DNA of 31,201 nucleotides, taken from the IMG/VR virus record IMGVR_UViG_3300010885_028661, positions 1 through 31,201 of that record; one strand, written 5' to 3'. This DNA comes from a virus. Of the stretch, positions 3,030-31,125 are shown one piece after another. Below the pieces are notes generated by a model. It was given only the letters and a program-made list of their open reading frames with translations. It was not told the origin of the DNA and did not search any database. The stretch's first letter is position 1. Every line of letters begins with the position of its first letter. The translations under genes were made by a program, and so were the position numbers.

Positions 3030-3081
3030 CTTTTTCTCCTTGTTTTATAATAATTTGGCAGGTATAAAGGACTATACTCTT

Positions 3082-3089
3082 TATTTAGA
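3082..3089 (-). promoter_or_regulatory. Candidate T4-type late promoter for gp18 (TCTAAATA)
   Basis: TCTAAATA on the minus strand lies in the 72-base gap after gp17, about 53 bases before the gp18 ATG. It is one base from the TATAAATA late consensus and identical to the box before gp19. A separate promoter for the highly expressed sheath and tube genes would make sense. Confidence 0.45.
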
Positions 3090-3101
3090 TTTTATTAGTT
3101 C

Positions 3102-5191: not shown

Positions 5192-5194
5192 CGT

Positions 5195-6550
5195 TTATGC
5201 TATTCCAAAACCACTAATATACCAAGTATTTGCTTTTACCATCATCAATGTTGCGACCCCGTATGTTAATACATTTCGGGAGGCCGAAGTTGTATTTCCT
5301 GCAAGGTATAATGACGTTCCTGTATTTGGAGTTACTATTATATTTGCACTTGATGTCGTTTGCGACACTATCATAACTGTTGTTCCGTTTGAGAATGCTA
5401 CGTTAGCACTTGTAGGAATATACAGATAATTGTTTGTTGACTGTGTAAAATATATGTATTTACCTGCGTCAGAAAGTTGTAACGTATAATTTCCTGATTG
5501 TGGATTTTGAGGAACTAATGTAGCAGCACTATTTGCCTGACTAAATGCTGCTTGTATACTTAAGTTCTGCGTAGCATCAACACCTTGAATTACAGTAATG
5601 GATGCATTTTGTGTAGCATCAACACCTTGAATTACAGTAATGGATGCATTTTGTGTAGCATCAACACCTTGAATTACAGTAATGGATGCATTTTGTGTAG
5701 CATCAACGCCAACTGTTACGTTTGCTTGGTTATATCCTGCTTGGGCTAATAGTTGTGCCGTGTTCGCTTGGTTATATGCCGACTGTATTTGGGTATTTTG
5801 AGTCGAGTTAATTCCTTGACTTACAATAGTATTTGATGTAGCACTATTTGCGGTATCAAACGCTGCTTGTATTTGGGTATTTTGAGTCGAGTTAATTCCT
5901 TGACTTACGATAGTATTCGATGAGGCATTGTTTGCCACATTAAATGCTGCTTGAATTGATAGGTTCTGTGTAGCATCAACACTTTGTATTATAGCAATGG
6001 TTGCATTCTGTGTTGCGTCTACACCTTGAATGACAACGATAGACGCATTTTGTGTTGCATCGACACCGATGGTCACATTTGCTTGGTTGTAACCAGCTTG
6101 GGCTAGTAGTTGTGCAGTATTGGATTGATTGTATGCTGCCTGTATTTGGTTGTTTTGTGTAGCATTGATTCCTTGACTTACAATAGTATTTGATGATGCA
6201 TTATTGGCAACATTAAATGCGGATTGTATTTGGTTGTTTTGTGTAGCATTGATTCCTTGACTTACAATAGTATTTGATGATGCATTATTGGCAACATTAA
6301 ATGCGGATTGTATTCTAGTATTCTGTGTAGCGTTGATAGTAGATTGAATTTGTGATGTAGTGTTAGATAAATTATATGATGCTGCCGCTGCTAACACAGC
6401 AGAATTTGCTTGATTGTATGCAAGATACGCGACCTGAACACTATCATACACTTCTGTAAAATTCTCATTAATTTTTATTCCGGCGTTTCTTAGTGTGTCT
6501 CCGGTTCCATCGTTCGTTGCAGAACCAACATTAATGATTTGCTGTGTCAT
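5195..6550 (-). CDS. Repeat-containing fibre-like structural protein inserted between gp15 and gp16
   Basis: A 451-aa protein in three parts. The N-terminus (MTQQIINVGSATNDGTGDTL and a following IKINENFTEVYDS) is a module common in T4-like phage fibre and virion proteins. Residues about 45-340 are repeats in multiples of seven residues built on TQN, IQAAFNVANNAS and NTIVSQGIN elements, likely a trimeric coiled or beta-fibrous shaft. The C-terminal ~100 residues form a beta-rich tip domain starting near GNYTLQLSDAGKYIYFT. The repeats match those of the 1234-aa protein at the other end of the window. Two runs are identical at DNA level (5581-5706 and 6141-6308). T4 has no gene here between gp15 and gp16. 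Ribosome site AAAGGG precedes the ATG. Role inferred as a fibre or whisker component; no specific homologue is claimed. Confidence 0.75.
   Translation of the reverse strand: MTQQIINVGSATNDGTGDTLRNAGIKINENFTEVYDSVQVAYLAYNQANSAVLAAAASYNLSNTTSQIQSTINATQNTRIQSAFNVANNASSNTIVSQGINATQNNQIQSAFNVANNASSNTIVSQGINATQNNQIQAAYNQSNTAQLLAQAGYNQANVTIGVDATQNASIVVIQGVDATQNATIAIIQSVDATQNLSIQAAFNVANNASSNTIVSQGINSTQNTQIQAAFDTANSATSNTIVSQGINSTQNTQIQSAYNQANTAQLLAQAGYNQANVTVGVDATQNASITVIQGVDATQNASITVIQGVDATQNASITVIQGVDATQNLSIQAAFSQANSAATLVPQNPQSGNYTLQLSDAGKYIYFTQSTNNYLYIPTSANVAFSNGTTVMIVSQTTSSANIIVTPNTGTSLYLAGNTTSASRNVLTYGVATLMMVKANTWYISGFGIA
5581..5706. repeat. Three identical 42-bp tandem repeats
   Basis: Copies at 5581-5622, 5623-5664 and 5665-5706 are base-for-base identical in my reading. 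Each encodes 14 residues (two heptads) of the VDATQNASITVIQG type. Perfect identity including third codon positions points to recent expansion. Confidence 0.95.
6141..6308. repeat. Two identical 84-bp tandem repeats
   Basis: Copies at 6141-6224 and 6225-6308 are identical. Each encodes 28 residues (four heptads) containing FNVANNASSNTIVSQGIN. Unit length stays a multiple of 21 bp, so the duplication preserves the heptad register. Confidence 0.95.
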
Positions 6551-6562
6551 TTTGATACCCTT

Positions 6563-9245: not shown

Positions 9246-9253
9246 TATTTATT
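9246..9253 (-). promoter_or_regulatory. Candidate late promoter for the gp13-gp15 unit (AATAAATA)
   Basis: The minus strand reads GAATAAATAG; AATAAATA is one base from the T4 late consensus and about 29 bases before the gp13 ATG. It overlaps the stop codon of the bilin reductase gene, so morphogenesis genes could be transcribed independently of the heme oxygenase/bilin reductase pair. Confidence 0.45.
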
Positions 9254-9938: not shown

Positions 9939-10458
9939 TTGCTATTTCATCATGTAAATTCAAAACAAAAGCAAAACAATGATTTGCGGCTGAACCCAAA
10001 TCTTCACTCAACACTTCTCTTAATTTAGCAATCAGGTCTGAACGATTTTCAAATTCATACATTTTACCAGACCCTGGTATTTTGCTCTTTATAATTTGAC
10101 CACCATACATATCAGCAAAGTGTCTTACATATATATGACCCATTATATCTGCGCTTAGATTTGGATCATTTTCTAAAAATGCGATATATGCTTTTGTTGA
10201 ATTGTGTAGTTTAAGATTTGGTTCATTCAATTCTTCTAAGTCTTGTTTGATTAAATTCGCTCTTAAAAGTTCAGGGAAATCTTTTAATATACCTAGTTCA
10301 GTTGCCTTTTTTTCTAAGGCATTATAGCATTCATATTGATTGTACAAATACTCAGCATAAACTTCTTTTGGTATATTTCCACTCAAAAGTAATTGTGTGA
10401 ATTTTGTCTTTTCTGCTTCGTCGTGTTTTTCTTTGATTTGTTCTCTTAATGTAGGCAT
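9922..10458 (-). CDS. ho1: Heme oxygenase (biliverdin-forming)
   Basis: Predicted to open heme to biliverdin IX-alpha, releasing CO and Fe(II), with ferredoxin as likely electron donor. It has 178 aa, clearly shorter than cyanobacterial HO1 (about 240). Key features: REQIKEKHDEAEKTKF at residues 5-20, in which His12 fits the proximal heme ligand of the HxxAE motif; the following EYLYNQYECYNALE helix; and GHIYVRHFADMYGGQ at 107-121, the distal-helix glycine motif (compare YxRYLGDLSGGQ). AANHCFAFVLNLHDEI at 157-172 matches the C-terminal helix. The gene follows a glycine-rich fibre gene after a 32-base gap and overlaps the bilin reductase, so the two should act in sequence. No clear late promoter precedes it; a TATAAT lies at 10494-10489 on the minus strand, without a good -35 box. 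Confidence 0.93.
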   Translation of the reverse strand: MPTLREQIKEKHDEAEKTKFTQLLLSGNIPKEVYAEYLYNQYECYNALEKKATELGILKDFPELLRANLIKQDLEELNEPNLKLHNSTKAYIAFLENDPNLSADIMGHIYVRHFADMYGGQIIKSKIPGSGKMYEFENRSDLIAKLREVLSEDLGSAANHCFAFVLNLHDEIANEYNL

Positions 10459-14954: not shown

Positions 14955-15950
14955 TTAGTTTAGCATTATATTTAGTGGGGAAAATGGTAATTGGTAAAAG
15001 TAAAAAGGAGGCAATTTATCAGAACTTGTTTTGTATGTTCCATAAAATCCCATACCATTCATGGGTGCTGTTGCAAAAGTTATCACGTTTCCGCTCAAAG
15101 TAAATCCATTTTGTTGAGTGTATATTTCTGATACGTGATTAAAATAATCTGTGGATCGATTGTTTGGATAGATAGAAATGTTTCCTATTTCTACTTGCAC
15201 TTGATTTGGATTATTAGGAGCAATAGGAATTCCATTGTATGTCAAACTAAACGATGTTGATATTCCATCAAAATAACTTGATATATCATCTAGAGTATAT
15301 ATGAATCCTACTGATTCTCCATTAGAATACGTAAAATTATTTGATACTAAAGTGTTTGTAGTTACTGTATTTGATGTTACTGTATTTGATGTTACTGTAT
15401 TTGATGTTACTGTATTTGATGTTACTATGTTTAATGTTACTATGTTTAATGTTGCAACGTTTGAAGTTACTGTATTTGCTACTACATTGGATGATGATGG
15501 TAATGTAGATAAGTCTGCCCAACCAATATCACCATTAGTCACAGATAATACTTGATACATATTACCTATAGGTAATCTTTGTGGTAATGTTGCACCTTCG
15601 TATTGTATATCACCCGGCTCATATGTTACAATGGTTTTGTAGTTATCATTAAATACCTTCCAATTACTACCTATTGTTCCTGGAGTTTGATTGTTGCTTG
15701 TACCTCCTACCAAAACAAAAGATGTATTTTGATATCTTACCGTATCTCCAACACCATATGTTGTATTTGCACTCCAATTACTCTTATAAGTAAATGTGTT
15801 AGATGCAACAGACCAAACGCTAGGATTAAAAATAGGCGCAGCACCTAAATTTCTATTTGTCGCCTTGTATAATTTTCCACCATAGATGGTGTAGTCATTA
15901 GGATTATACGTGGTCGTTGTTGAGTAATAACCGGTAAAAGTATTTGCCAT
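14955..15950 (-). CDS. Fibre-type protein with CBM5/12-like domains and pentapeptide repeat
   Basis: A 331-aa protein. Two carbohydrate-binding (CBM5/12, chitin-binding-like) units lie at about residues 5-35 (YNPNDYTIYGGKLYKATN) and 57-92 (WSANTTYGVGDTVRYQN). A short linker (PIGNMYQVLSVTNGDIGWA) is followed by a run of the pentapeptide S-N-T-V-T at about 157-200, and then by a C-terminal domain (SSYFDGISTSFSLTYNGIPI) found in other marine phage fibres. The N-terminal units match the eight repeats of the 1045-aa protein. It is first in the minus-strand unit left of the plus-strand island and has a consensus late promoter 48 bases upstream but no obvious Shine-Dalgarno. Sugar binding is inferred from the fold match only. 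Confidence 0.7.
   Translation of the reverse strand: MANTFTGYYSTTTTYNPNDYTIYGGKLYKATNRNLGAAPIFNPSVWSVASNTFTYKSNWSANTTYGVGDTVRYQNTSFVLVGGTSNNQTPGTIGSNWKVFNDNYKTIVTYEPGDIQYEGATLPQRLPIGNMYQVLSVTNGDIGWADLSTLPSSSNVVANTVTSNVATLNIVTLNIVTSNTVTSNTVTSNTVTSNTVTTNTLVSNNFTYSNGESVGFIYTLDDISSYFDGISTSFSLTYNGIPIAPNNPNQVQVEIGNISIYPNNRSTDYFNHVSEIYTQQNGFTLSGNVITFATAPMNGMGFYGTYKTSSDKLPPFYFYQLPFSPLNIMLN
15361..15480. repeat. 15-bp minisatellite coding S-N-T-V-T
   Basis: The plus strand shows four identical 15-mers (gttactgtatttgat) at 15361-15420, two copies of a variant (gttactatgtttaat) at 15421-15450, then two diverged units to 15480. The number of units sets the length of a flexible or beta-solenoid linker in the fibre protein. 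It is likely prone to slippage. Confidence 0.93.
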
Positions 15951-16065: not shown

Positions 16066-16995
16066 ATGTATAAGATTGCTTTTGTTAATGGTGGTGCTGG
16101 TCGAATGATTTGCTCAATCCCAGCACTGGAAAAGTTTATTCTTAAAAACCCAGAAAACTATGTTATCAGTGAAGGTGGTTTAGATTTTGTTTGGGGAAAT
16201 AAAATTCTTCAGGACAGAACTTTTGATTCTAACACCAAAGGTATTTTTGAAAGTATCATTCGTAATGGAGAAATAATCTCTGTTGAACCTTATCGAGAGC
16301 ATGAATACTATAATCAAAAAATTAGTATTGCTCAAGCAATAGACAAAATCATTAATGGATCATATGAGAGTATTGAAAAATACAAGGTCAAATTAACACT
16401 CAACAAAGAAGAAGAAATTACGGCACTTGCTGTGACCACAGAAGCAAAAAAAGTGCAAGGTAAAAAGAAAACCGTGTTGATTCAACCTTTTGGTCGCGGC
16501 GTAGTTAATGATGAAAATTTAAGTATTACATACGACCATGGTAGTCGTAGTATGGAAAATGATTTCTATCTTAAATTGGCAACAGAAATTAAAAAGAAAT
16601 ATAACGTCATATCTATGTCAGAATTTCAAATTCCTGGTGATGACATTACTATGTCACCAAAAAATTTGACATTACGCAAATGGGCAGCTGTTATTGAACA
16701 GATAGATTATTTTGTTGGATGTGATTCTGTCGGCCAACATTTTGCTTATGGGTATGATAAACCAGGAACAGTTATTTGTGGCTCAACTTTTCCAATTAAT
16801 GTTAGTTATCCAAATCATTTTAACATTGTTGAGAAAAAAGGATTTGAACGCAAATATGACCCAATTCGAATTTGTGAATTTGGTAGCTACGAAGCAGGTA
16901 GATTAAATGATGTCGCTATGTCATTTAATGAAAACGAATCTAAAGAAATTATTCATAAAATTATGTTACATATTAAGTCTAAGATTGGAGAGTAA
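16066..16995 (+). CDS. GT9 (heptosyltransferase)-like glycosyltransferase
   Basis: A 309-aa protein with a GT-B-like layout. The N-terminal half starts KIAFVNGGAGRMICSIPALEKF (residues 3-24), matching the GxGxxxxxxPxLxxL start of ADP-heptose-type transferases. The C-terminal half has VLIQPFGRG (137-145) and DYFVGCDSVGQHFAYGYDKP (214-233) followed by GTVICGSTFP, which parallels the GT9 motif around TNDSGPMHLAAALGKP. The donor sugar cannot be told. Ribosome site GGAG is 5 bases before the ATG. It is first of three co-directional plus-strand genes with 3- and 1-base gaps. Likely substrates are a virion glycan or host lipopolysaccharide. Confidence 0.65.
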   Translation: MYKIAFVNGGAGRMICSIPALEKFILKNPENYVISEGGLDFVWGNKILQDRTFDSNTKGIFESIIRNGEIISVEPYREHEYYNQKISIAQAIDKIINGSYESIEKYKVKLTLNKEEEITALAVTTEAKKVQGKKKTVLIQPFGRGVVNDENLSITYDHGSRSMENDFYLKLATEIKKKYNVISMSEFQIPGDDITMSPKNLTLRKWAAVIEQIDYFVGCDSVGQHFAYGYDKPGTVICGSTFPINVSYPNHFNIVEKKGFERKYDPIRICEFGSYEAGRLNDVAMSFNENESKEIIHKIMLHIKSKIGE

Positions 16996-16998
16996 ATT

Positions 16999-18786
16999 AT
17001 GACACAGTGGATTGCAGGTATTACCCGAGGACATAATGGTGCAACATGCCTCTTGAAGGACGGCGAGTTGGTATTTTATATTGAAGAAGAACGTCTGAGT
17101 CGCAAAAAATATGATGGTGGTCCTTTTGCGGGTATGTTGAAGATTAAGGAATATACAGACAAATTAGATTATCTTGTTGTTGCACATACCAATTCTTTAG
17201 AGTTGTCTGCTGGTAAAATTGATTTTACTGGTGATGACATGTACACTGGCTTTGCACGTAAGATTGGTTTGATTGACCAGAAATCAGAACTAAGAAACCA
17301 CCCACAAGTTATTGATATGGGTATGATTCATCACGAAATGCATGCCGCTTGTGCTTTTTATAATTCTGGTTTTGAGGAAGCAGCCTGTGTTATTGTTGAT
17401 GGTGCTGGTACTTTTGTTCCATTGGGCGATAATGATATTGGGTGGGAATTAGAAACAATCTTTCATGCTTCATATCCAAACAATTTTGTGACCAAATATA
17501 AACATATTGGTGTTCGTGGTCCACAAACGACATTTGAAAAGATTCAAGTACCACATTCATTTAGAGGTAAACCTGAAGACCTACATGATGTAATTTTTTC
17601 GGATAAGCCTGGTATTACTAAATGTTACGAGGCGATGACAAACTATTGTGGGTTCCCATTTATTGAAGCAGGAAAAGCAATGGGTCTTGCACCATACGGT
17701 AAAGAAAATCCAAATATTCCTTTTATCTTTCATGGTGAAGAGGGTCGTCATTTGAGTAATCGTAATTTGTTTGTACCAAACTATCCAAATGGTGCTCATA
17801 TAGATTCGGTTGCATTTCCATATTTGAATACGGATAATCTAGAAGTCAAAAAAGATTTGGCTTATGCAGTTCAAAAGGCGACACAGGAACAGGTATTGAG
17901 ATTAATTAAAAAGGCAATCGAGATTACTGGTTCTAAAAATGTTGTGGTTGCTGGTGGTTATGGACTAAATTGTGTTGCGAACTATTATTATTTGTCGCAG
18001 CTACCAGAGGGTGTGAAAATTTACAACGAACCAATTAGTCATGACGGTGGAACATGTATTGGTGGCGCAAAATATGTACACCACGAAGTCGCAAAAGATA
18101 ACACCATTCGTAAACAAACAAGCATCTATTATGGTCCGAACTACTTTGAAACAACTGGATACAACATTAATTTGGACGAATCAAATGGTGAAACAATGTG
18201 TGAAATCACCAAAGATGAAATTATTGATTTGATTCGTGACAAAAATATTGTTGCTTTGTATCAAGGTGGTTCAGAAGCAGGTCCTCGAGCCTTAGGTAAT
18301 CGAACACTCATGTTTGATCCGACTGTGCATAATGGTAAAGACTTAGTGAATGAAGTTAAGCATCGTGAATGGTTCCGTCCTTTTGCGGGTACAGTTTTGG
18401 CTGAATATGCTCATGATTATTTTGACCTACGAGGCATGGAAGATTCTTCTTTTATGATGTATGCTGTTAATTGTAAGCCAGGAGTTGAAAAGATTATTCC
18501 TTCAATCATTCATGTGGATGGAACATGTCGTATTCAAACTGTCACAAAAGAACAGAACAAACACTACTATGAATTGATTGATGCATTCCGTGCAAAGACA
18601 GGAATTCCAATTCTATTCAATACTTCCTTCAACCTTGGTGGTGATCCATTAGTTGAAACAATTGACGATGCTCTAGATACACTTCGTAGGTCAGATATCA
18701 AATATTTGTATTTGCCTGAAATTGATAAATTGATTTATATTCCTAAAAATTATTCTGAAGAAATTGATCCGATTCTAGGAGAGTGA
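16999..18786 (+). CDS. Carbamoyltransferase, NodU/TobZ/CmcH family
   Basis: Predicted to transfer a carbamoyl group from carbamoyl phosphate, via an adenylated intermediate, to a hydroxyl of a sugar or similar acceptor. It has 595 aa, a normal full length. N-terminal Kae1-like domain: ITRGHNGATCLLKDGELVF at residues 8-26, the metal-binding HHEMH at 111-115 (HxxxH), VDGAG at 133-137, GKAMGLAPYG at 225-234, VAGGYGLNCVANY at 318-330 and SHDGGTCIGGA at 347-357. C-terminal carbamoyl-phosphate domain: GGSEAGPRALGNRTLMFDP at 423-441 and KHREWFRPFAGTVL at 454-467. All motifs look intact. Ribosome site GGAGAG precedes the ATG. Neighbours suggest it decorates the sugar handled by the upstream glycosyltransferase. 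Confidence 0.93.
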   Translation: MTQWIAGITRGHNGATCLLKDGELVFYIEEERLSRKKYDGGPFAGMLKIKEYTDKLDYLVVAHTNSLELSAGKIDFTGDDMYTGFARKIGLIDQKSELRNHPQVIDMGMIHHEMHAACAFYNSGFEEAACVIVDGAGTFVPLGDNDIGWELETIFHASYPNNFVTKYKHIGVRGPQTTFEKIQVPHSFRGKPEDLHDVIFSDKPGITKCYEAMTNYCGFPFIEAGKAMGLAPYGKENPNIPFIFHGEEGRHLSNRNLFVPNYPNGAHIDSVAFPYLNTDNLEVKKDLAYAVQKATQEQVLRLIKKAIEITGSKNVVVAGGYGLNCVANYYYLSQLPEGVKIYNEPISHDGGTCIGGAKYVHHEVAKDNTIRKQTSIYYGPNYFETTGYNINLDESNGETMCEITKDEIIDLIRDKNIVALYQGGSEAGPRALGNRTLMFDPTVHNGKDLVNEVKHREWFRPFAGTVLAEYAHDYFDLRGMEDSSFMMYAVNCKPGVEKIIPSIIHVDGTCRIQTVTKEQNKHYYELIDAFRAKTGIPILFNTSFNLGGDPLVETIDDALDTLRRSDIKYLYLPEIDKLIYIPKNYSEEIDPILGE

Positions 18787-18787
18787 A

Positions 18788-19507
18788 ATGTCACAATGTT
18801 TTATTTGGAGAGGAGAAGAACCAGTCACAAAATTTGGACCTAGAATCTATGCTCCGATGTATATGTCAAAAGATGGAACAAAAGACTTCAACAAACGTTT
18901 GATTGACTATGTTTTAGAATGTGAAAAAGTATTAGAAGATGAAGAATTGGTAAGTGAACTACCAAAGAATAATGCCGATCCATACAAGTACACACAACAT
19001 TGGAAACAACATAATTTGCTGGACGATACAGGTTCAAGGAAAGATGGTGACCATCTGGAGAAATTTAAACCTAATCCAGTTCAAAAGGAACTTTTTGATA
19101 AAATTAGAACAAATTATTTGTTGATGTTACAGAAGTTCAAATTTCCAAGAATTAAATGTTGGATTCATGCTTGGGGTAATGTTTTGCGTAAAGATGAGTT
19201 TATTAGTAAACATTCTCATATTCCTAGTGAGCAGGCATATTTGGCGTCAGTATACTATCCTCATTCTTCACCAACAGATTTGTTGTTGTTACACCCAATA
19301 TCACCGGATCAGACTATTAAAATTCCAACGGAAGAAAATTCATTGATTTTCTTCCCTAGTTGGATATCACATGTTGGAACTAAAGTTGATTATGACGGAC
19401 TAAGAATTAGCGTGGCCTCAGATATTGTTACAGAACATACTATGAATGCAAATCCTTGGAGACCACACATATTGTTTGATGATCCTGATACTATGCCTGG
19501 ACTTTAA
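18788..19507 (+). CDS. 2-oxoglutarate/Fe(II)-dependent oxygenase (PF13759-like)
   Basis: A 239-aa protein of the putative phage 2OG-Fe(II) oxygenase type. The core at residues 125-212 has a WIHAWGNVLRKDEF strand, then KHSHIPSEQAYLASVYY with His142/His144 as the likely first metal ligand pair, SLIFFPSWISHVG with His195 as the distal ligand, and LRISVASDI with Arg206 positioned for 2-oxoglutarate. The fold is thus complete, but the acidic ligand of the classical HxD motif is replaced by HxH, as in this subfamily as I recall it. Substrate unknown; hydroxylation of a sugar, protein or base is possible. Ribosome site AGGAGAG overlaps the upstream stop. Its stop overlaps by 4 bases the stop of the convergent gene at 19504. 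Confidence 0.85.
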   Translation: MSQCFIWRGEEPVTKFGPRIYAPMYMSKDGTKDFNKRLIDYVLECEKVLEDEELVSELPKNNADPYKYTQHWKQHNLLDDTGSRKDGDHLEKFKPNPVQKELFDKIRTNYLLMLQKFKFPRIKCWIHAWGNVLRKDEFISKHSHIPSEQAYLASVYYPHSSPTDLLLLHPISPDQTIKIPTEENSLIFFPSWISHVGTKVDYDGLRISVASDIVTEHTMNANPWRPHILFDDPDTMPGL

Positions 19508-20024: not shown

Positions 20025-20837
20025 TTAATATCTAATTAAAATCAAACCGTTAGATCCTGTTCCTGCACGGGCACACTGGCAGCACTGCGTCAGAAATGCT
20101 CCTTGTCCTGCTTGACCACCCATAGAGCATCCTGTCTGTGCGAAGCATGAGTTACTAGTTGCAGGAGCATAGCACCAATTGACTGTGTTTACGGTTGATG
20201 ATCCCCATGGTACACCACCTGTCGCAGATTTGTAATACTGACCAATAGAGTCTGTCCACATACCTATTGTTCCTGATCCTAAATTACTACATCCACCTCC
20301 GGTCTGACAACTGCTTCCTCCAGATATCGCACAAGATATATATGCCAGCCCAAAATTTGTATTTGGGCTGACAGCACACGCACAAATAGTAGTTCGCGTA
20401 TAGGGACTAGTACACAAACAATAAAGATAGCAGTTATTTACTCCACCTACGCCTCCACCAGCACATAACGTTGTTATGCTTGGTCCAGTGACGGAAGTAA
20501 ATCCTCCATCTCCACCGTAGCAACACGAATGTTGAGACGAATTACCAGATTCGGTGTACATTCCTCCAGCACCAACACACAATGCATATGATTGTCCGGC
20601 AACTACAGGAACAGTAATCGATGCATAATTTCCAGAACTTCCTCCAGATCCTTGATGATAGCATTCACAACAACATTTTGCTCCACCCCCACCACCTGCC
20701 CCCCATATTTCAAATGTCACACAATTGACTCCTGTTGGTACTGTCCAAGTATTAGCTCCTGGAGTATTATATGCAGAAATTATTGGGCCTCTAAAATATT
20801 GCGTATTAACGCTATCTGCCGTATTAAATCTAGCCAT
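20025..20837 (-). CDS. Glycine/cysteine-rich adhesin-like tail protein C
   Basis: A 270-aa protein with an N-terminal ~30-residue stretch, then TWTVPTGVNCVTFEIWGAGG, and a long Gly/Cys/Ser-rich domain ending NGLILIRY. I count about 23 cysteines, including the cluster KCCCECYHQG and a QCCQC near the end, very unusual for a phage tail protein. Poly-Gly runs resemble the loops of glycine-rich phage adhesins. It is related to the proteins at 21272-21994 and 22287-23069 and, without the cysteines, to the one at 10491-11885. Ribosome site AGGAA. Predicted receptor-binding tip; the cysteines may form disulfides after release or bind metal. Confidence 0.75.
   Translation of the reverse strand: MARFNTADSVNTQYFRGPIISAYNTPGANTWTVPTGVNCVTFEIWGAGGGGGAKCCCECYHQGSGGSSGNYASITVPVVAGQSYALCVGAGGMYTESGNSSQHSCCYGGDGGFTSVTGPSITTLCAGGGVGGVNNCYLYCLCTSPYTRTTICACAVSPNTNFGLAYISCAISGGSSCQTGGGCSNLGSGTIGMWTDSIGQYYKSATGGVPWGSSTVNTVNWCYAPATSNSCFAQTGCSMGGQAGQGAFLTQCCQCARAGTGSNGLILIRY
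20701..20750. repeat. 50-bp near-identical block shared by adhesin genes C and B (copy 1)
   Basis: Bases 20701-20750 match 21843-21892 with only 3 differences in 50. They encode the WTVPTGVNC and FEIWG segment. The homologous site in adhesin A (near 22972) is much more diverged. Confidence 0.9.
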
Positions 20838-21271: not shown

Positions 21272-21994
21272 TCAGATAGTAATAATAACTAGACCATCTG
21301 CACCACCACCGGCACAGCCGGCGGTGCAGTCACACCAAGTATTCAGTTGTGGTTTTGGGGTACCTCCACCACCAGGAAAATTCCCAGAAGATCCACACGC
21401 TTGATATATATTAGCACCAACGGATTTTGTTCCTATTTGCCAACCTCCACCAAATGGTGAAGCACCACCAAACGAAGATCCAGAACAAAACGCATGGCAA
21501 CATACTGTTGAGCGTGGTTGTCTTCCCCTTATACTTACATCACCACCATATCCTATGCCAGCTGCCGCGGCATCGACATTGCTGTTACACCAAAGTCCAC
21601 CAGCACCGCCAGTTGCACAAAAATTAGATAATCCTGTTCCTGTTACGTATGATGTTTGTCCTGGACACCCACAAGCATTAGTGTTAAACCAACATTCATT
21701 GCCGCATCCACCAGCACCAACAGCTATATTATATACCTCCCCTGGAGTAACAGGAATGGTTTTTAAAGAATATCCACCACCGGCTCCCGCGTGGCCACTA
21801 TAGCAAGTACAACAACACATTGGTGCTCCTGCTCCACCACCACCCCATATTTCAAATGTCGCACAATTGACTCCTGTTGGTACCGTCCAGGTTGTAGTAT
21901 ATTGTGTACATCCACCACCTGGTACTCTAAACATTACTCTTTTAGCCGCACCGTTTTTAACATTTTGATAACCTGAATATACGTATCGTCCCAT
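21272..21994 (-). CDS. Glycine/cysteine-rich adhesin-like tail protein B
   Basis: A 240-aa protein with TWTVPTGVNCATFEIWGGGG near residues 35-54, nearly identical to adhesin C, then the cluster MCCCTCYSGHAG and repeated GGAGG/GAGGCG loops, ending DGLVIITI. About 19 cysteines. Its ATG shares one base with the stop of the 93-aa gene upstream (TAATG at 21994), so translation is coupled to that gene. Role as for adhesin C; variation between the copies is concentrated in the Gly-rich loops. Confidence 0.75.
   Translation of the reverse strand: MGRYVYSGYQNVKNGAAKRVMFRVPGGGCTQYTTTWTVPTGVNCATFEIWGGGGAGAPMCCCTCYSGHAGAGGGYSLKTIPVTPGEVYNIAVGAGGCGNECWFNTNACGCPGQTSYVTGTGLSNFCATGGAGGLWCNSNVDAAAAGIGYGGDVSIRGRQPRSTVCCHAFCSGSSFGGASPFGGGWQIGTKSVGANIYQACGSSGNFPGGGGTPKPQLNTWCDCTAGCAGGGADGLVIITI
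21843..21892. repeat. 50-bp near-identical block shared by adhesin genes B and C (copy 2)
   Basis: Partner of 20701-20750 (47 of 50 bases identical). Direct orientation, about 1.1 kb apart; recombination between the two would delete one chaperone-like gene and fuse the two adhesins. Confidence 0.9.
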
Positions 21995-22286: not shown

Positions 22287-23069
22287 TTACCAAGTTATTC
22301 TTACGAGACCTGGACCACCTTTACCTGATTGTGTTGTTGTACAAGTACAACTCGTGCCCGGGTTGGTCGTGCCGTTTCTGTGTCCTGAACCTCCACCTCC
22401 TGGAATAGCACCATTCATATTGTATGCTCCGTTTGTGCCGTTGTCCGCACACGAGTAGCAGCAGGTCATCGATCCTAATATACCACCAGCACCACCTCCT
22501 GGTCCACCAGCATTTCCTCCCATAGTGACTATGGCCATCGCCGTCGATGCACCATCAGTGAATATGACTCCAGGCATACCACCAAGATTTAAATCTCCAT
22601 TGTAGCCTAATCCTCCAGAGGCTCTGTCGGCCGAACCTGCTAATCCACCAGTACATCCACAGAAACCGTAACAATTTAGTGCGAAATTAGAACAGGCTCC
22701 TTTTCCTCCAGTGGCACAAAAGTTCGCTGGAACATTATAACCGGTTACGAAAGAAGTTCCTCCGTCACAACCATTACAGCAATATCCGATACCTGCACCA
22801 AAAGTTCCTGTAGAATCTACGGCACCATTGGCCGCGCAGATAGTATATACGCATCCGGCAATCGTACTGACAGTTTTCATTGAATATCCGCCGCCGCCCC
22901 CGCCCATGGTGACGTTGCAGCAATCACAAGAAGAAATACCACCACCTCCTCCACCACCTCCGCCCCATATTTCAAAAACTACAGATGAGACACCAAGTGG
23001 AACTGTCCATGCACAACAAACACCAGCAGTACTTACGCAGGTTGTATCATATATTAATTGTACTGGCAT
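22287..23069 (-). CDS. Glycine/cysteine-rich adhesin-like tail protein A
   Basis: A 260-aa protein that starts MPVQLIYDTTCVSTAGVCCA, with WTVPLGVSSVVFEIWG followed by a run of nine glycines, then SSCDCCNVTM, and ends GGPGLVRITW. About 21 cysteines, often in CC or CxC pairs. It is the most diverged of the three paralogues in the FEIWG region. It starts 2 bases after the stop of the 106-aa gene. Predicted receptor-binding tail protein, as for the other two. Confidence 0.75.
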   Translation of the reverse strand: MPVQLIYDTTCVSTAGVCCAWTVPLGVSSVVFEIWGGGGGGGGGISSCDCCNVTMGGGGGGYSMKTVSTIAGCVYTICAANGAVDSTGTFGAGIGYCCNGCDGGTSFVTGYNVPANFCATGGKGACSNFALNCYGFCGCTGGLAGSADRASGGLGYNGDLNLGGMPGVIFTDGASTAMAIVTMGGNAGGPGGGAGGILGSMTCCYSCADNGTNGAYNMNGAIPGGGGSGHRNGTTNPGTSCTCTTTQSGKGGPGLVRITW

Positions 23070-23429: not shown

Positions 23430-26400
23430 TTAAATAGCCGCAAAGAAATAAGAATCTCTTTTAATAATGGGCGCTGCGATTTGAGATGCCACATAAGTAA
23501 CAACTGCTGCTTGTGTTGGTACTTTTTGATTTGAGTTTTGAGACATCGTTCCGTCTGTTGAAAACTCATTAATCTGTGCACCTAACTGAGCACCAATCGA
23601 ACCAAGTCTTAGTGATGACAGACCAGATAGATTAAATGATGATGCATTAAGTGTTGCAGCACCAGTTGCTTGGTTGACAGCAAAGTATTGTCCAACAGAG
23701 AAGTTACCCGATTGGTCAGTTGAAACATAGTACACACGACCAGGATAATTGTTTATTACTTGGTTGCTTGGTATATACTGAGTGACTGACGTATTTGGAT
23801 AATTTGTGTTCGCAATTCCACCAGTACCAATTCCTAAGAAGTCATGACCAGTTAGACGAATGTTACTATATTGTTGACGAATAACAATCGCCTGACCGTC
23901 ATATGTTGGATATGATTGTGGTTTTGTGCTGGTTAATGTTAGAACTACCGTATTTGGGCTGCTTGACCAGTTTGAAATAGATGCGATAACATATGCATAT
24001 GGGTCATAGCCTACGTTTGCAGTATTAGCAATAAACTGAACAGACGAACCAGGAAGTAATAATGTGTTTCCAGTTAGGTTGTTTGCAGTAAACACAACAC
24101 CATATTGTCCGCTTACTGGAGATGCAGTTTGTGTATTTGCAGTCACTCCAGTCGATGAACTAAAAGTTGCATCGGAATATTCTCTAACTACTTCACTGGT
24201 AGTAAAGGTGTTAGAATTTTGACCAGTATATTTGAAGTATATTTGGTTTGTACTAGTTTGGAAACTTAAAATTACGGCTCTTGCATTGGATGTTGCACCT
24301 AACAAATAGTTGTTAGATGTCATAACAGAACCTGACGGTGATAAAGTATTCGCTTGATACTGAAGCATCGAACCGTAAATGTTTGCTGTTATGGGAACTT
24401 CTGCTGAATTAAATCCTGTCGCAACAGCACCAAATCTACCATATGAGTTGTTACCATTCAGTGCGCGAATAACACCACCGTTATTGGTAACATATCCAAA
24501 GTTACAGAAATATGTAAAACACGAAACTATTTCAGCTCGGCCACCATTTGTGACATAATATCCAACACCATCATCGTTGATACATGTATATGCGTGGAAC
24601 AACATTGACTTGTTTCCACTAGCATGAACTGAACCATCAACTAATGCACCTATACCTCCTTTAGAGATACAACTCACATCATTAACATATGGTGATTTTA
24701 CTAGAATAGGACTTGCTGGATTCAATCTTAAGAACACACCAGCAATAGTATGAGTGCTGATATCTGAACCAGGAGAATATACTGTATTTGCTGTGACAGC
24801 ATTATTTGCAACATATCCTGTCATACCGCTCATAGTTAAGCGTGTTACCATTGTACTATCACTTAGATAGAACATTGTACTATTTGCGTTAGGTGTTGAT
24901 CCATCAAGCGATAGACCACTTGCGGGTTGAACAATTGTTGTTCTTGTTGAGTCGCCTACAATTGAACATCCTGCTGGAACAGTAATTGGAAGCACTTCAC
25001 TATATGTTGCTCCCTTGAGCATTAGTGTTGCTGCTGTTTGTCCTGGAGTATTTGCAGAACTTAATCTTTGTGTTGCATATTGAATTGTTTTCCATGGTCT
25101 TCCAAGAGAAGAACCGTAATCTGGTCTATCTTGTCCAATATCTGGAGCAATATAATAAACGTTTGCTGTAACTCCAGAATTTTCCCATTGTGGTAATCCA
25201 GTATTTGAAACAATCAATACTTGTCCATTTGCACCAATCGGCAATCTAACTAAACCAGAAACTCCTTGATATACCAAATCTCCGCTTGTGGTATAAATGC
25301 CAGATATTGAACCTTGTGCAAGTGTTTGCCAGTATGCCGTATTGCTTGCTGGAACTATATTAGTATTATATGACGAAATCGAAACATATGATGAGTTTGC
25401 ATAGAATACAGTATCACCAAGTTGATATACTGCTGATGAGTTCCAAGTTCCTTGATTTCTAATTCCTTGAGTGAATGTTAACCACTGCGAAGAATTTGCT
25501 GGAGTCGGAGCAATACCAACAGATGTTGCCAATGCAACATACGTATTACCACCAAATGCTACTATATCTCCAGGATTATATTGTGTCGATCCAGTTTGGT
25601 CGTAATAATTCTTAAAGTTCGTACCAGTAGTAAATGTAGTCCACTGTGTAGTATTTGATGGTGTTGGAGAAACACCATTAGTAGTCACTAAGGCAACATA
25701 TGTGTTGCCACCAAATCTTACTACGTCACCAGCATAATATTGTCTATTGGGATTATATATTCCGAGGAAGTTTGTACCGGTAGAATATGTTAACCATTGC
25801 GTTGAATTTGATAACGTTGGTGAAACACCTGTAGTTTCAGTTAATGCGATATAGTTATTACCACCAAATCTTACTACATCACCAGAAACATATGAATTTG
25901 CTGAATTGTAGGTACCTAGATGTTGAGTACCTTTACTTACTAGAGACCAGTAAGAAGCATTTGACGGTAGAATGCCTGTAGATTCTACTTTGTTTACGTA
26001 AGTATATGCACCATAGTTTACTACTTGACCTGGTTCATATTTTGTCGCAGGATTATAAGTTCCAACTGCAATATAACCGGTTGTCAGAACTGACCACGCG
26101 TTCGTGTATAGATTGGGTTGTAGGTTGATGTTGTTGTTTGATGCGACATATGAATATCCACCAAAGGTTACAACGTCACCAATCGAATAGTTTATTGTAT
26201 TTGCGTATGTGTTTAGAAACTCTAAACCACCAGCAAATAGTTGAAAGTTTCCTGAGTTTGCTACCCAACTATTTGAGTCGCCGGATCTATGTTGGTTTAC
26301 TGTGATGTATGCATCTGCACCGTAACGGACAATATCATTTAGATTATATTGTGTGTTTGGAGTCCAAACTCCAGACCAATTGAATCCAGGAGCAATCTTT

Positions 26401-26567
26401 GTCCAATTTGAAATATCATTGTAGAAGAATGAACTTGCAGTGTGGTTTCCTGTACATGCGTATGCAATACCGCCGTATGTGATGATATCATCTTTGATGT
26501 ATGAGGTACCTGTAACCCACGCACCCAAAAATGTAAATTTTAATCTACCAAGTACAAAATCTGCCAT
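23430..26567 (-). CDS. Large fibre protein: eight CBM5/12-like repeats plus probable beta-helix
   Basis: A 1045-aa protein. Residues about 10-430 hold eight units of about 45-55 residues of the pattern W/Y-N-x-x-x-x-Y-x-x-G-D-x-V-x-(Y/F)-G-G-x-x-Y-x-A, for example QYYAGDVVRFGGNTYVAL, which match small carbohydrate-binding modules (CBM5/12). From about 470 (YYIAPDIGQDRPDYGSSLGR) a pectin-lyase-like right-handed beta-helix is likely, starting with KTIQYATQRL and VPAGCSIVGDSTRTTIVQP. From about 905 the C-terminus (GHDFLGIGTGG, VYYVSTDQSGNFSVGQYFAV, LSSLRLGSIGAQLGAQINEF) matches a conserved end of T4-like cyanophage structural proteins. Ribosome site AGGAG. Probably a long tail-fibre component that binds surface polysaccharide; no enzymatic residues were identified. 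Confidence 0.8.
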   Translation of the reverse strand: MADFVLGRLKFTFLGAWVTGTSYIKDDIITYGGIAYACTGNHTASSFFYNDISNWTKIAPGFNWSGVWTPNTQYNLNDIVRYGADAYITVNQHRSGDSNSWVANSGNFQLFAGGLEFLNTYANTINYSIGDVVTFGGYSYVASNNNINLQPNLYTNAWSVLTTGYIAVGTYNPATKYEPGQVVNYGAYTYVNKVESTGILPSNASYWSLVSKGTQHLGTYNSANSYVSGDVVRFGGNNYIALTETTGVSPTLSNSTQWLTYSTGTNFLGIYNPNRQYYAGDVVRFGGNTYVALVTTNGVSPTPSNTTQWTTFTTGTNFKNYYDQTGSTQYNPGDIVAFGGNTYVALATSVGIAPTPANSSQWLTFTQGIRNQGTWNSSAVYQLGDTVFYANSSYVSISSYNTNIVPASNTAYWQTLAQGSISGIYTTSGDLVYQGVSGLVRLPIGANGQVLIVSNTGLPQWENSGVTANVYYIAPDIGQDRPDYGSSLGRPWKTIQYATQRLSSANTPGQTAATLMLKGATYSEVLPITVPAGCSIVGDSTRTTIVQPASGLSLDGSTPNANSTMFYLSDSTMVTRLTMSGMTGYVANNAVTANTVYSPGSDISTHTIAGVFLRLNPASPILVKSPYVNDVSCISKGGIGALVDGSVHASGNKSMLFHAYTCINDDGVGYYVTNGGRAEIVSCFTYFCNFGYVTNNGGVIRALNGNNSYGRFGAVATGFNSAEVPITANIYGSMLQYQANTLSPSGSVMTSNNYLLGATSNARAVILSFQTSTNQIYFKYTGQNSNTFTTSEVVREYSDATFSSSTGVTANTQTASPVSGQYGVVFTANNLTGNTLLLPGSSVQFIANTANVGYDPYAYVIASISNWSSSPNTVVLTLTSTKPQSYPTYDGQAIVIRQQYSNIRLTGHDFLGIGTGGIANTNYPNTSVTQYIPSNQVINNYPGRVYYVSTDQSGNFSVGQYFAVNQATGAATLNASSFNLSGLSSLRLGSIGAQLGAQINEFSTDGTMSQNSNQKVPTQAAVVTYVASQIAAPIIKRDSYFFAAI

Positions 26568-26607: not shown

Positions 26608-27420
26608 TTATGCTGGACCACCAGAATAATCATAATCGTTTAGATATCTTGCTACAAGAAATCCTCTACTGTTAATATAATATGTCAATTTGATATTATC
26701 AAATCTAACTTGCTCATATTTTCTATGCTTTAAGTTTGTTGTTTCTCGTCGTATATTTATAATGCCATATACATTAGAATGATTTCCACTCGCATAATAC
26801 AGTACATTAGGAGCATCTAGAGGAATTGTAAATGTTAAAGGACCAGGACTTTCTGTATTCAGGTCACCATTTTTTCCACCATATGCGGATCTAGAATTTG
26901 TTACTCCTAATAACCATTCATAATTATAATTCGCACCAAAAGGCTGTGTGCTAATATACAACGGATACCCTTGTGTGCTTGAATCAGAAGTATCAAACGT
27001 ATATGTAGCACCATAAGTTAATTCTAATTCTATATTTGTGTTGCTCTGATTAGATACTCCGTTATAATCAATTGAGCCAGTAGACCCAGATAATTCCAAA
27101 TTGTATTTTCCGTTTACGACACGAACTTTTATTGTTTTAGCTTGTTGTACTTTGTCACCAACTTCATTGTAATATGTCGGTATAGTATTGTGAGCAACTC
27201 CACTGTCTGTTGTTCCTCTAATCAATTCTTCTAATCCGTTGTACGCAAAACCAGTTCCGTCGGTTAGCTGAATAGACTCTTGTGTATTTGCAAACAGTGC
27301 TTTTGAATAAGTTAGTTTACCATCTGCATCTCTATAGAGGCCATGAAATGCCATTTGTGACGATGGTATATCTTGTGCTAAATTATTTTTATTTGATAGT
27401 AAATCGCTTAAAGTTAACAT
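26608..27420 (-). CDS. Virion structural protein with cupredoxin-like domain
   Basis: A 270-aa protein. Residues about 1-95 resemble fibre N-terminal modules (AFHGLYRDADGKLTYSKALF). Residues about 128-223 have a cupredoxin-like pattern: TYGATYTFDTSDSSTQGYPL, then LTFTIPLDAPNVLYYASGNH and VYGIINI. In copper proteins the loop before the His normally supplies Cys; here it is Tyr-Ala-Ser, so only His214 of the usual ligands is visible and copper binding is unlikely. The same domain occurs in other marine phage virion proteins as I recall them. The C-terminus (KLTYYINSRGFLVARYL) is a short beta region. The start directly abuts the stop of the 1234-aa gene (TAAATG). Role inferred as baseplate or fibre component. 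Confidence 0.65.
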   Translation of the reverse strand: MLTLSDLLSNKNNLAQDIPSSQMAFHGLYRDADGKLTYSKALFANTQESIQLTDGTGFAYNGLEELIRGTTDSGVAHNTIPTYYNEVGDKVQQAKTIKVRVVNGKYNLELSGSTGSIDYNGVSNQSNTNIELELTYGATYTFDTSDSSTQGYPLYISTQPFGANYNYEWLLGVTNSRSAYGGKNGDLNTESPGPLTFTIPLDAPNVLYYASGNHSNVYGIINIRRETTNLKHRKYEQVRFDNIKLTYYINSRGFLVARYLNDYDYSGGPA

Positions 27421-30400
27421 TTAGACCGCCACTCTCCAGGTTGACCCGCTATAGATTACATAAAAGTTTGCTCCCATCATATTAAATGCTAGAGTATCAT
27501 CAACATCATTGATTGTATTACCATTACCATTTATATATGCAGGATTAACATCCTTGTTTCCACCACCATCCGCAAAGTTTATTGAGTCTCCCGCAGAAGG
27601 ACTTGGGGGTAACTTAACAGATATTGGTCCTGTAGTTGTTATTAATAAGCAAGTAGTCTGTCCAGAATTTAAAGTCACATCCGAATTGATTATTGAATAT
27701 TTATATTGTAGCGTTGTGTTCGCTTTATCGAACGCGGCTTGTATTGCTAAGTTTTGTGTAGAATTTACATCAATAGCAGAGTTTGCTAAATCTCTTGCAT
27801 ATTGGTCATACCCACCCGATACTGCTGCGTTTGCTCTATCAAATGCTGCCTGTATCACTAAATTCTGTGTAGCATCGACACTTTGAATTATAGTAATAGT
27901 AGTATTGACGCTGTTTAAGTTTCCTTGAACACTATTTGCAAAACTATATGCTGCTTGAGCAACCCCAGTAGCATATGTAATGTTCGTATTTTGTGTTAGG
28001 TCTACACCTTGAATAATTGTAATTAAGTTATTCTGTGTAGCATCAACACCAATGGTTACATTTGCTTGATTGTAGCCTGCTTGAGCTAATATTTGTGCTG
28101 TATTAGACTGATTATATGCTGATTGTATACTTAAGTTCTGAGTAGCATCTACACCAATGGTGACGTTTGCTTGGTCATAACCAGCTTGTGCTAGTACCTG
28201 TGCCGTATTGGATTGATTGTATGCTGCTTGTATACTTAAGTTTTGCGTTAGGTCTACATTTTGAATAACGCTGATTGCAGCATTTTGTGTTGCATCTACA
28301 CCAATAGTTACGTTTGCTTGATTGTAACCAGCTTGTGCTAGTACCTGTGCTGTATTTGCTTGGTTATACGATGCTTGTATACTTAGGTTTTGTGTGGCAT
28401 CGACACCTTGTATTGCGATAATAGACGCATTTTGTGTAGCATCAACACCAATAGTCACATTCGCTTGATTGTAGCCTGCTTGAGCCAGTAGTTGTGCAGT
28501 GTTAGATTGGTTATAGGCAGATTGGATCGCTAGATTCTGCGTTAAGTCTACACTCTGAATAATACTAATTGCAGCATTTTGTGTAGCATCAACTCCAACG
28601 GTAACATTCGCTTGGTTATATGCTGCCTGTACCAGAAGTTGTGATGTGTTCGCTTGATTGAATGCTGCTTGTATTTGGGTATTCTGTGTTGAATTTACTG
28701 AGGTGCTATACGTGTAAATATCAACGCCATTTGTAATCAAATTGCCTTTGAAATATCCAGCACGCAGATTAGCATACGTGAATGAAGGATCGGCAATATT
28801 GATTATATTGTTACTTTGTACTTCTGGTGTGTATCCTTGGAATACAATGAATTCTTTTAAATCAGGATCACGAATAAATCCTGTATGTGCATTTGTTCCA
28901 TCATTATAATGACCGATGAAACCAATATCAACTACGTCAGAATAATAATTATTTCCTGCTAAAAATATTAGAGGGTCATCAATACTAAGTTGTGACGCAG
29001 AAATTGTCGTTGTATTACCAAAGATTCTTAGGTTGCCTTGAATCGAAACATCTCTAGCAAAAGTAACATTACCTGATACTGTGCCACCATTATATACAAA
29101 CGAGTTTCCTACGTTAGCAGCAGTAAATGCGGAAGCGATAGCTAAGTTCTGTGTTGCATCGACACCAACAGTTACGTTTCCTTGGTTGTAGCCTGCTTGA
29201 GCTAGTAGTTGTGCCGTATTTGCTTGGTTATATGCTGCTTGTATTTGGTTGTTTTGTGTAGCATCAACACCAACAGTTACATTTGCTTGGTTATATCCTG
29301 CTTGGGCTAATAGTTGTGCTGTGTTGGACTGATTATATGCTGCCTGTATTGCTAGATTTTGTGTTAGGTCTACACTCTGAATAATACTAATTGCAGCATT
29401 TTGTGTTGCGTCTACACCGATTGTAACATTTGCTTGGTTATAACTGGCTTGAGCTAATAGTTGCGATGTATTTGCTTGGTTATACGATGCTTGTATACTT
29501 AAGTTTTGTGTTAAGTCTACACCTTGAATAATTGTGATTAAATTATTCTGTGTTGCATCTACACCAATTGTAACATTTGCTTGGTTATATGCCGCCTGTG
29601 CCAGCAATTGTGATGTGTTAGCTTGGTTATACGATGCTTGAATTGCTAAGTTCTGGGTAGCATCTACGCCAATGGTTACATTTGCTTGGTTATAACCGGC
29701 TTGTGCTAAAAGTTGTGCTGTATTTGCTTGATTATATGCAGATTGAATTGCTAGATTCTGCGTTAAGTCAACACCTTGTATTACAGTAATAGACGCATTT
29801 TGTGTTGCATCTACACCGATTGTAACATTTGCTTGGTTATAACTGGCTTGAGCTAGTAGTTGCGATGTATTTGCTTGGTTATATGATGCCAGTATACTTA
29901 AGTTCTGTGTAGCATCAACACTCTGAATAACAACGATTGCCGCATTTTGTGTTGCATCTACGCCAATAGTTACATTTGCTTGGTTATATCCAGCTTGGGC
30001 TAGTAGTTGTGCTGTATTTGCTTTATCAAATGCTGATTGAGTTAATAAACTAATATTATTAACTGTGGTGTTAATATGGGTAATTGCTAAGTTCTGTGTA
30101 GCATCAACACCTTGTATAGCAACAATGGACGCATTCTGTGTAGCATTGACACCAATTGTTACGTTTGCTTGGTCGTAACCTGCTTGTGCAAGTAACTGTG
30201 TAGTATTTGCTTGGTCATATGCTGCTTGAGCTAACAGTTGTGATGTGTTCGCTTGCGATGAACCAGAGTTTGACTGATTATATGCTGCTTGTGCTAGTAG
30301 TTGTGCTGTATTTGCTTGTGATGCGCCACTATTTGCCTTGTCAAATGCTGCCTGTGATAGTACACTAACATTGTTAATCGTATTATTTGCATATGCAATG

Positions 30401-31125
30401 GCAAGATTCTGTGTTAAGTCTACACCTTGAATAATAGTAATAGACGCATTTTGTGTAGCATCAACACCAATTGTTACATTTGCTTGATTGAATGCGCCTT
30501 GAGCAAGACCAGCACCAGTGTTTGCTTGTGTATATGCGGCAGATATGGATAAGTTTTGCGTGGCATCAACGCCTTGTATGACCACAATAGATGCATTAGC
30601 GCCATCCAGATTGCCTTGTACTGTATTTGCCTTATCATACGCACCTTGTGCGATACTAGTGGCATATGTTATATTTGTATTCTGTGTTGAGTCTATGCCT
30701 TGAATAATACTAATTGCAGCATTTTGTGTAGCATTGATACCTTGTAGTACTACAGTATTTGCTCCGGCAGTATTAGCAGTATCTCTTGCGTATTGGTCAT
30801 AACTTGCTCCACCACCAGACGCAGTAGAATTAATAGTGATACTCTTATTAAAAGTATCAGTATTAAATGTTATATTTGTTCCAGGAATTAAACTCAGAAT
30901 ATCACTTGCTGATGTCGCAAGAATTAATGAGTTATTTGAATTTATTGTTGCAAAAGAATTTGTATTTGATGTAACAGAAAATGGAACTATACTGCCAACG
31001 TAATTCTTATAATATATTTTTCCGTCTCTATAGTTTAGAGCGAGTTCACCAAAAGCAAGGTTCGCCGGAATATTTCCCAGAGAACCTGAACTTCTGATTT
31101 TAATTACGGTGTTGGAAATTGCCAT
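27421..31125 (-). CDS. Long repetitive tail fibre protein (heptad repeats)
   Basis: A 1234-aa protein. The N-terminus (RSSGSLGNIPANLAFGELAL, NYRDGKIYYKN) is the fibre module common in T4-like cyanophages. Residues about 120-665 and 815-1130 are repeats with a 49-residue full unit made of seven heptads, beginning YNQANTA and QLLAQAG and continuing through IGVDATQ elements. Shorter units lack whole pairs of heptads. A non-repeat beta domain (about 670-815, DVSIQGNLRIFGNTTTISAS, FIGHYNDGTNAHTGFIRD) interrupts the shaft. The C-terminal ~90 residues (SVKLPPSPSAGDSINFADGG) form a beta tip. Coiled-coil-like trimeric shaft inferred. Start chosen at ATG 31125, just after tandem upstream stop codons; no clear Shine-Dalgarno. 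Likely a long or whisker-type fibre. Confidence 0.8.
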   Translation of the reverse strand: MAISNTVIKIRSSGSLGNIPANLAFGELALNYRDGKIYYKNYVGSIVPFSVTSNTNSFATINSNNSLILATSASDILSLIPGTNITFNTDTFNKSITINSTASGGGASYDQYARDTANTAGANTVVLQGINATQNAAISIIQGIDSTQNTNITYATSIAQGAYDKANTVQGNLDGANASIVVIQGVDATQNLSISAAYTQANTGAGLAQGAFNQANVTIGVDATQNASITIIQGVDLTQNLAIAYANNTINNVSVLSQAAFDKANSGASQANTAQLLAQAAYNQSNSGSSQANTSQLLAQAAYDQANTTQLLAQAGYDQANVTIGVNATQNASIVAIQGVDATQNLAITHINTTVNNISLLTQSAFDKANTAQLLAQAGYNQANVTIGVDATQNAAIVVIQSVDATQNLSILASYNQANTSQLLAQASYNQANVTIGVDATQNASITVIQGVDLTQNLAIQSAYNQANTAQLLAQAGYNQANVTIGVDATQNLAIQASYNQANTSQLLAQAAYNQANVTIGVDATQNNLITIIQGVDLTQNLSIQASYNQANTSQLLAQASYNQANVTIGVDATQNAAISIIQSVDLTQNLAIQAAYNQSNTAQLLAQAGYNQANVTVGVDATQNNQIQAAYNQANTAQLLAQAGYNQGNVTVGVDATQNLAIASAFTAANVGNSFVYNGGTVSGNVTFARDVSIQGNLRIFGNTTTISASQLSIDDPLIFLAGNNYYSDVVDIGFIGHYNDGTNAHTGFIRDPDLKEFIVFQGYTPEVQSNNIINIADPSFTYANLRAGYFKGNLITNGVDIYTYSTSVNSTQNTQIQAAFNQANTSQLLVQAAYNQANVTVGVDATQNAAISIIQSVDLTQNLAIQSAYNQSNTAQLLAQAGYNQANVTIGVDATQNASIIAIQGVDATQNLSIQASYNQANTAQVLAQAGYNQANVTIGVDATQNAAISVIQNVDLTQNLSIQAAYNQSNTAQVLAQAGYDQANVTIGVDATQNLSIQSAYNQSNTAQILAQAGYNQANVTIGVDATQNNLITIIQGVDLTQNTNITYATGVAQAAYSFANSVQGNLNSVNTTITIIQSVDATQNLVIQAAFDRANAAVSGGYDQYARDLANSAIDVNSTQNLAIQAAFDKANTTLQYKYSIINSDVTLNSGQTTCLLITTTGPISVKLPPSPSAGDSINFADGGGNKDVNPAYINGNGNTINDVDDTLAFNMMGANFYVIYSGSTWRVAV
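27712..30763. repeat. Degenerate 147-bp / 105-bp / 42-bp coding repeats
   Basis: The shaft of the 1234-aa fibre gene is made of units of 147 bp (49 codons), with shorter ones of 105 bp (35 codons) and inserts of 42 bp, all multiples of 21 bp. The non-repeat stretch at about 28690-29110 splits the array. The same elements occur at 5500-6430 in the 451-aa gene. Confidence 0.85.

Follow-up and report, generated by a model that had tools for sequence, protein, structure and literature searches.

Introduction

How can a phage fibre change its length without its repeats falling out of register? Three-stranded helical rods are a well-known way in which phages build fibres. The window analysed here, a 31.2-kb stretch of viral DNA (positions 1 to 31,201 of the IMG/VR record IMGVR_UViG_3300010885_028661), encodes a repeat protein of 1234 aa that puts this question. 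An earlier note had read positions 27712-30763 (-), which are aa 121-1138 of this protein, as one fibre shaft made of 49-residue units of seven heptads each. It had suggested a trimeric coiled coil or similar periodic fold, whose register is kept through every length change and whose length evolves by gain and loss of heptad pairs.

The window carries T4-like structural genes in the order tail tube, sheath, and large and small terminase subunits, after which follow a repeat protein, a gp15-like sheath stabiliser, two head-closure/adaptor genes and then fibre and structural genes. Its large terminase shares ~56% identity with those of T4-like phages of Synechococcus and Prochlorococcus, and we regard the virus as probably T4-like, contractile-tailed and cyanophage-like. 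No annotated phage was matched by the whole 1234-aa protein, nor by the first 25 kb of the window in a megablast search. Two overlapping genes within the structural cluster (9249-10458, -), one for a ferredoxin-dependent bilin reductase (PF05996) and one for a haem oxygenase (PF01126), suggest a cyanobacterial host. Two genes downstream of the repeat gene help to place it:

26608..27420 (-): 270-aa protein, with a weak resemblance of its C-terminal part to a baseplate wedge/tail fibre connector (phrog_677, E 1.2e-6)
23430..26567 (-): tail fibre gene with CBM_5_12 modules (phrog_9851, E 5e-274; PF02839, E 8e-21)

The 1234-aa gene is thus adjoined by other fibre genes, with comparable synteny in L009, and this supports a tail-fibre role for 27421-31125. 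Elsewhere in the cluster, a 331-aa CBM_5_12 protein (14955-15950, -) contains ~8 copies of a 15-bp repeat (15338-15478) coding for VTSNT-like 5-residue units, and a plus-strand trio (16066-19507, +) of an unknown gene, a Nol-like carbamoyltransferase and a 2OG-Fe(II) oxygenase interrupts the minus-strand structural genes. Three genes (20025-20837, 21272-21994 and 22287-23069, all -) match phrog_4205, and two of the three match a tail fibre assembly family as well; they are apparently duplicates beside the tail fibre gene.

Results and Discussion

The 1234-aa protein is laid out as follows:

27421..31125 (-): fibre protein open reading frame, 1234 aa, ATG to stop
30802..31125 (-): N-terminal module, aa 1-108, probable anchor to the virion (BLAST matches in 53 ORFs of related loci; shaft types of the relatives)
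29146..30801 (-): shaft 1, aa 109-660, heptad-register repeats, constant phase in aa 129-654 (autocorrelation, motif phase)
30220..30345 (-): two 21-aa (three-heptad) elements, aa 261-281 and 282-302, a single-heptad insertion against the 14-aa element
30178-30219 (-): 14-aa element, aa 303-316, reference for the 21-aa elements
29884..30030 (-): 49-aa unit, aa 366-414
29737..29883 (-): 49-aa unit, aa 415-463
29632..29736 (-): 35-aa unit, aa 464-498, without 14 aa
29485..29631 (-): 49-aa unit, aa 499-547
29338..29484 (-): 49-aa unit, aa 548-596
29233..29337 (-): 35-aa unit, aa 597-631
29128..29232 (-): 35-aa unit, aa 632-666, the final unit ahead of the insert
28693..29145 (-): globular beta insert, aa ~661-811; limits approximate, sharing residues with the end of the unit before it
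27730..28692 (-): shaft 2, aa 812-1132, constant phase in aa 844-1082 (autocorrelation, motif phase)
28516..28662 (-): 49-aa unit, aa 822-870
28369..28515 (-): 49-aa unit, aa 871-919
28222..28368 (-): 49-aa unit, aa 920-968
28117..28221 (-): 35-aa unit, aa 969-1003
27970..28116 (-): 49-aa unit, aa 1004-1052
27424..27729 (-): C-terminal domain, aa 1133-1234, XD1 fold as in T4 gp9/gp10 and CBA120 TSP4 (AlphaFold and structure alignment)

The shaft is therefore not uninterrupted as first described, since aa ~661-811 form a non-repetitive beta domain that had been missed. Its repeats do come in multiples of seven. In the identity autocorrelation of aa 121-1138, lag 49 reaches 0.379 (z 29), followed by lags 98 (0.29), 133 (0.286), 35 and 84 (0.285 each), 14 (0.242) and 63 (0.181), all far above shuffled sequences (mean 0.099, 95% maximum 0.134). 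Lags divisible by 7 average 0.167 and every other class 0.080-0.098, so that multiples of seven dominate, contrary to the lack of peaks at such lags that the earlier note had named as its refutation. The earlier note had pointed to lags 7, 14, 35 and 49, of which the last three peak; lag 7 does not (0.070), and neither do 21, 28 and 42. The reason lies in the unit itself: its seven heptads (YNQANTA, QLLAQAG, YNQANVT, IGVDATQ, NASITVI, QGVDLTQ, NLAIQSA) differ from their neighbours in sequence, and what recurs is blocks of 2, 5 or 7 heptads only.

The motif phase modulo 7 is constant within aa 129-654 and again within 844-1082. Its sole break is a shift of +1 across the beta insert (spacing 190, i.e. 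27x7+1), meaning that the register is kept through the length changes inside both segments but not across the ~150-aa insert. With this 190 left out, the spacings of V-D-x-T-Q-N in the protein and its paralogue are 14, 28, 35, 42, 49 and 91, all multiples of 7. Full units measure 49 aa and short ones 35 aa, a difference of 14 aa in line with the earlier view that shorter units lose multiples of 14; the two 21-aa elements, however, differ from the 14-aa form beside them (aa 261-316) by one heptad only.

Relatives of the fibre protein are encoded in 76 viral-contig loci, which were found partly through repeat motifs, so that heptad types are enriched, and otherwise through an N-terminal motif. 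Among the 47 proteins that form the non-redundant set with enough anchors, multiples of 7 account for 83% of the [YF]xx[AS]N spacings (expected 14%) and, in 12 proteins, for 93% of the [VI][DN]xxQN spacings (expected 14%). Multiples of 7 are the majority class in 45 of the 47 relatives, and in strongly repetitive windows of all ORFs of the related loci the dominant lag is a multiple of 7 in 66% of cases (expected 13%). Register keeping is family-wide. Odd and even heptad numbers are about equally common in the 47 relatives (364 and 416 spacings). Together with the local 21- versus 14-aa step, this speaks against growth by heptad pairs: the length quantum is one heptad.

The remaining strong periods in these loci include 11, 15 and 3, which are coiled-coil or collagen periods. 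Fibre proteins with 11- or 15-residue periods (L022 2178-5273, L029 4217-6238 and L028 5416-6894) show hydrophobic peaks that average near 3.7 and 3.74, as expected for hendecad and pentadecad coiled coils.

The domains around the shaft bear on how many chains build it. In the 53 ORFs with a related N-terminal module, the shafts that follow are of heptad, hendecad or collagen-like type, and the module probably anchors the fibre to the virion. (GPT)n collagen shafts are joined to such relatives in L046, L056 and L063 as well as in S-CBS2, and a relative of the C-terminal domain sits between GPT runs in L081. Collagen helices are obligately trimeric, needing three chains. In the AlphaFold model of aa 1004-1234 the C-terminal domain is a confident beta fold (pLDDT ~80). 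VIA-align places aa 1133-1234 with CBA120 TSP4 (7rfo, Z 12.1), T4 gp9 (1qex, Z 10.6) and gp10 (5iv5_AC, Z 10.2) at rmsd 2.2-3.4 over 93-100 residues, which assigns it to the XD1 fold, and Foldseek matches it to XD1 with E 2.8e-5. XD1 domains form trimers and are regarded as spacers that lie between docking modules (PMC8825819). Because the C-terminal domain matches a trimeric fold and relatives of both ends are joined to collagen shafts, we infer that the fibre is a trimer.

The beta insert has a core of strands predicted at pLDDT 75-90 and is related by BLAST to 62 ORFs in the related loci; it gave no PDB match by sequence search, nor by Foldseek of the shaft-plus-insert model. According to BFVD, the insert (28693-29145) is found again in many proteins of uncultured phages, among them proteins whose annotation is collagen-like or names an Mtd N-terminal domain, and weakly matches models of Micromonas pusilla virus SP1. 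A link between the N-terminal module and the Mtd N-terminal domain was rejected: it was hinted at only by the names of BFVD matches to the shaft/insert model, and Pfam gave no match.

For the shaft itself, AlphaFold of aa 548-968 with 31 relatives predicts ~23-43-residue helices that are interrupted in every unit at NVT[IV]GV (a monomer model of low confidence, about 40-78 in the repeats). This agrees with the coiled-coil or periodic fold proposed earlier in that helices are predicted and a trimer is indirectly supported, but the prediction does not make the shaft a single unbroken coiled coil. Unlike textbook coiled coils it is rich in A, Q, N and T, with only 5% charged residues. The main hydrophobic periods of the 1234-aa protein are 12.1, 2.04 and 2.88 residues. 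The 3.5-residue peak is weak: in aa 254-675 its power is 8.5 where the null gives 3.3, minor beside the other peaks, and the windowed average yields 1.7. Nothing convincing emerged when the shaft, the insert or the whole protein was compared with PDB sequences, and Foldseek of the shaft-plus-insert model against the PDB gave nothing significant. Pfam matches to the repeats (SAMP2, EAD1 and others) lay below the cut-offs and were rejected as composition matches.

We consider it likely that the gene encodes a long trimeric fibre consisting of an anchor, a segmented parallel alpha-helical rod in heptad register, a beta insert and an XD1-fold end. The two long stretches, about 880 residues, would form a three-stranded rod, roughly 0.13 µm (about 130 nm) long if continuous, with the beta domain interrupting it. 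Each 35- or 49-residue unit would contain one non-helical NVT[IV]GV, and the helix would restart at a D-x-T-Q capping box. At the C-terminal end, the XD1-fold domain would hold the three chains together and may be a spacer or docking point for the next fibre protein. Only insertions and deletions of whole heptads would keep the core positions of the three chains aligned, which could explain why length changes survive as whole heptads and why length evolves in heptad steps.

The break itself could also be read in another way, namely that NVT[IV]GV(D), and perhaps QGVD, form trimeric beta-layers, so that the unit is a helix plus a beta-layer and not a helix plus a loop. Indeed, the break resembles known beta-layers in its beta-branched residues and D/T cap (PMC4786415), it occurs 14 times, mostly at 35/49/63 spacing, and the model of aa 1004-1234 has short strands at NVTIGVD/LITIIQG. 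These strands are of low confidence (pLDDT < 50), however, and published beta-layers are 2- or 6-residue insertions into heptads, whereas here all steps are multiples of 7; we hold such an alpha/beta coiled coil to be possible but unlikely. Less probable still is a beta-rich trimeric shaft, a triple beta-helix or beta-spiral, whose repeat is a multiple of seven by chance. The weak 3.5 signal, the 2.04-residue component and the many beta-branched residues would fit it, and many phage fibres are beta, but AlphaFold gives helices, the composition is Ala/Gln-rich, and nothing would oblige a beta shaft to keep to multiples of 7 in 45 of 47 relatives.

The age of the units speaks to the remaining alternative. 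Thirteen units share on average 80% of their amino acids and 75% of their bases. Differences at fourfold-degenerate sites (0.51) approach saturation (~0.62) at an amino-acid identity of 0.80, which marks the units as old and their pattern as maintained by selection acting on the protein. Repeat mis-assembly was judged unlikely, as the units differ at ~25% of bases. A second fibre gene of the same kind lies in the window:

5195..6550 (-): second fibre gene, 451 aa, built of the same units, between the gp15-like and terminase small subunit genes
5571..5707 (-): 3.3 identical 42-bp (14-aa) copies in this gene (TRF, 100% matches)

The identical copies point to a recent heptad-pair expansion, showing that 14-aa steps still occur. 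The N terminus of the 451-aa protein weakly matches the T4 gp9/gp10 N-terminal domain (PF07880, E 3e-4), so that the protein may be a neck or baseplate fibre. L007, which is identical to window positions 2046-8360, is uninformative on length variation. That the register only reflects how a 14-aa DNA module was duplicated in tandem, without structural constraint, is the reading we most disfavour and think very improbable: the identical 42-bp copies and the sequence shared between units fit it, but the units are old, odd heptad numbers are about as common as even ones in the relatives, and diverse sequences keep the phase.

How does the segmented helical rod compare with known fibres? The closest principle is PCoil, a trimeric, helical, hydrophobic-poor phage coiled coil whose lengths vary in multiples of seven (PMC3368898), and our shaft shows the same heptad periodicity and length differences. 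In the collagen-like side tail fibres of E. coli prophages (EPclA, PMC3368898), PCoil has a likewise loose heptad and is combined with collagen modules. The principle of heptad-step phage coiled coils is hence already known, as far as the passages on PCoil in that paper go; those passages describe no 49-residue higher-order unit with a regular break. Our shaft also differs from PCoil in its A/Q/N/T-rich sequence, and no Pfam phage fibre-repeat family matched its repeats at E <= 0.01. T4 fibritin (wac) is a segmented trimeric coiled coil with non-helical interruptions, N-terminal attachment and a C-terminal trimerising domain (PMC3797505, PMC3004832), as we propose here too, and no fibritin family was among the Pfam, PHROGs and NCBIfam matches at E <= 0.01. 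Fibritin of T4 ends in the foldon and our protein in an XD1-like beta domain, a difference that excludes the T4 type only; fibritin C-termini vary (PMC3797505). Moreover, T4 fibritin measures 53 nm, less than half the length deduced for our shaft, and lacks the closely similar tandem units. The XD1 fold is common to T4 gp9/gp10, CBA120 TSP4 and our C-terminal domain (Z 10-12), but in gp9/gp10 it lies near the N terminus of a baseplate protein, whereas here it would end a ~130 nm shaft. S-CBS2 gp052, a collagen-like tail protein, has a related N-terminal module on a collagen-like shaft in place of the heptad one.

Conclusion

In summary, the 1234-aa protein repeats in whole heptads, and the register is kept throughout a family of phage proteins with a length step of one heptad. 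The 49-residue unit with its one regular break, together with the breadth of the family, may be new. A bolder proposal, to which we give only a small chance, is that the unit is a new periodic fibre architecture: a trimer in which ~six heptads of polar, nearly uncharged helix alternate in exact phase with one beta-layer-like NVT[IV]GV. If this were true, different aquatic phages would lengthen a modular rod heptad by heptad and exchange it with collagen shafts on a common anchor. The family offers a clean series from nature, with fibres that differ in length by fixed seven-residue steps as their sequences drift, and it suggests that heptad, hendecad and collagen-like rods have been combined with one phage anchor module. 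The rule of whole-heptad insertions and deletions for trimeric rods thereby becomes testable across many environmental phages, and sequence would offer a predictable ruler for the length of phage fibres.
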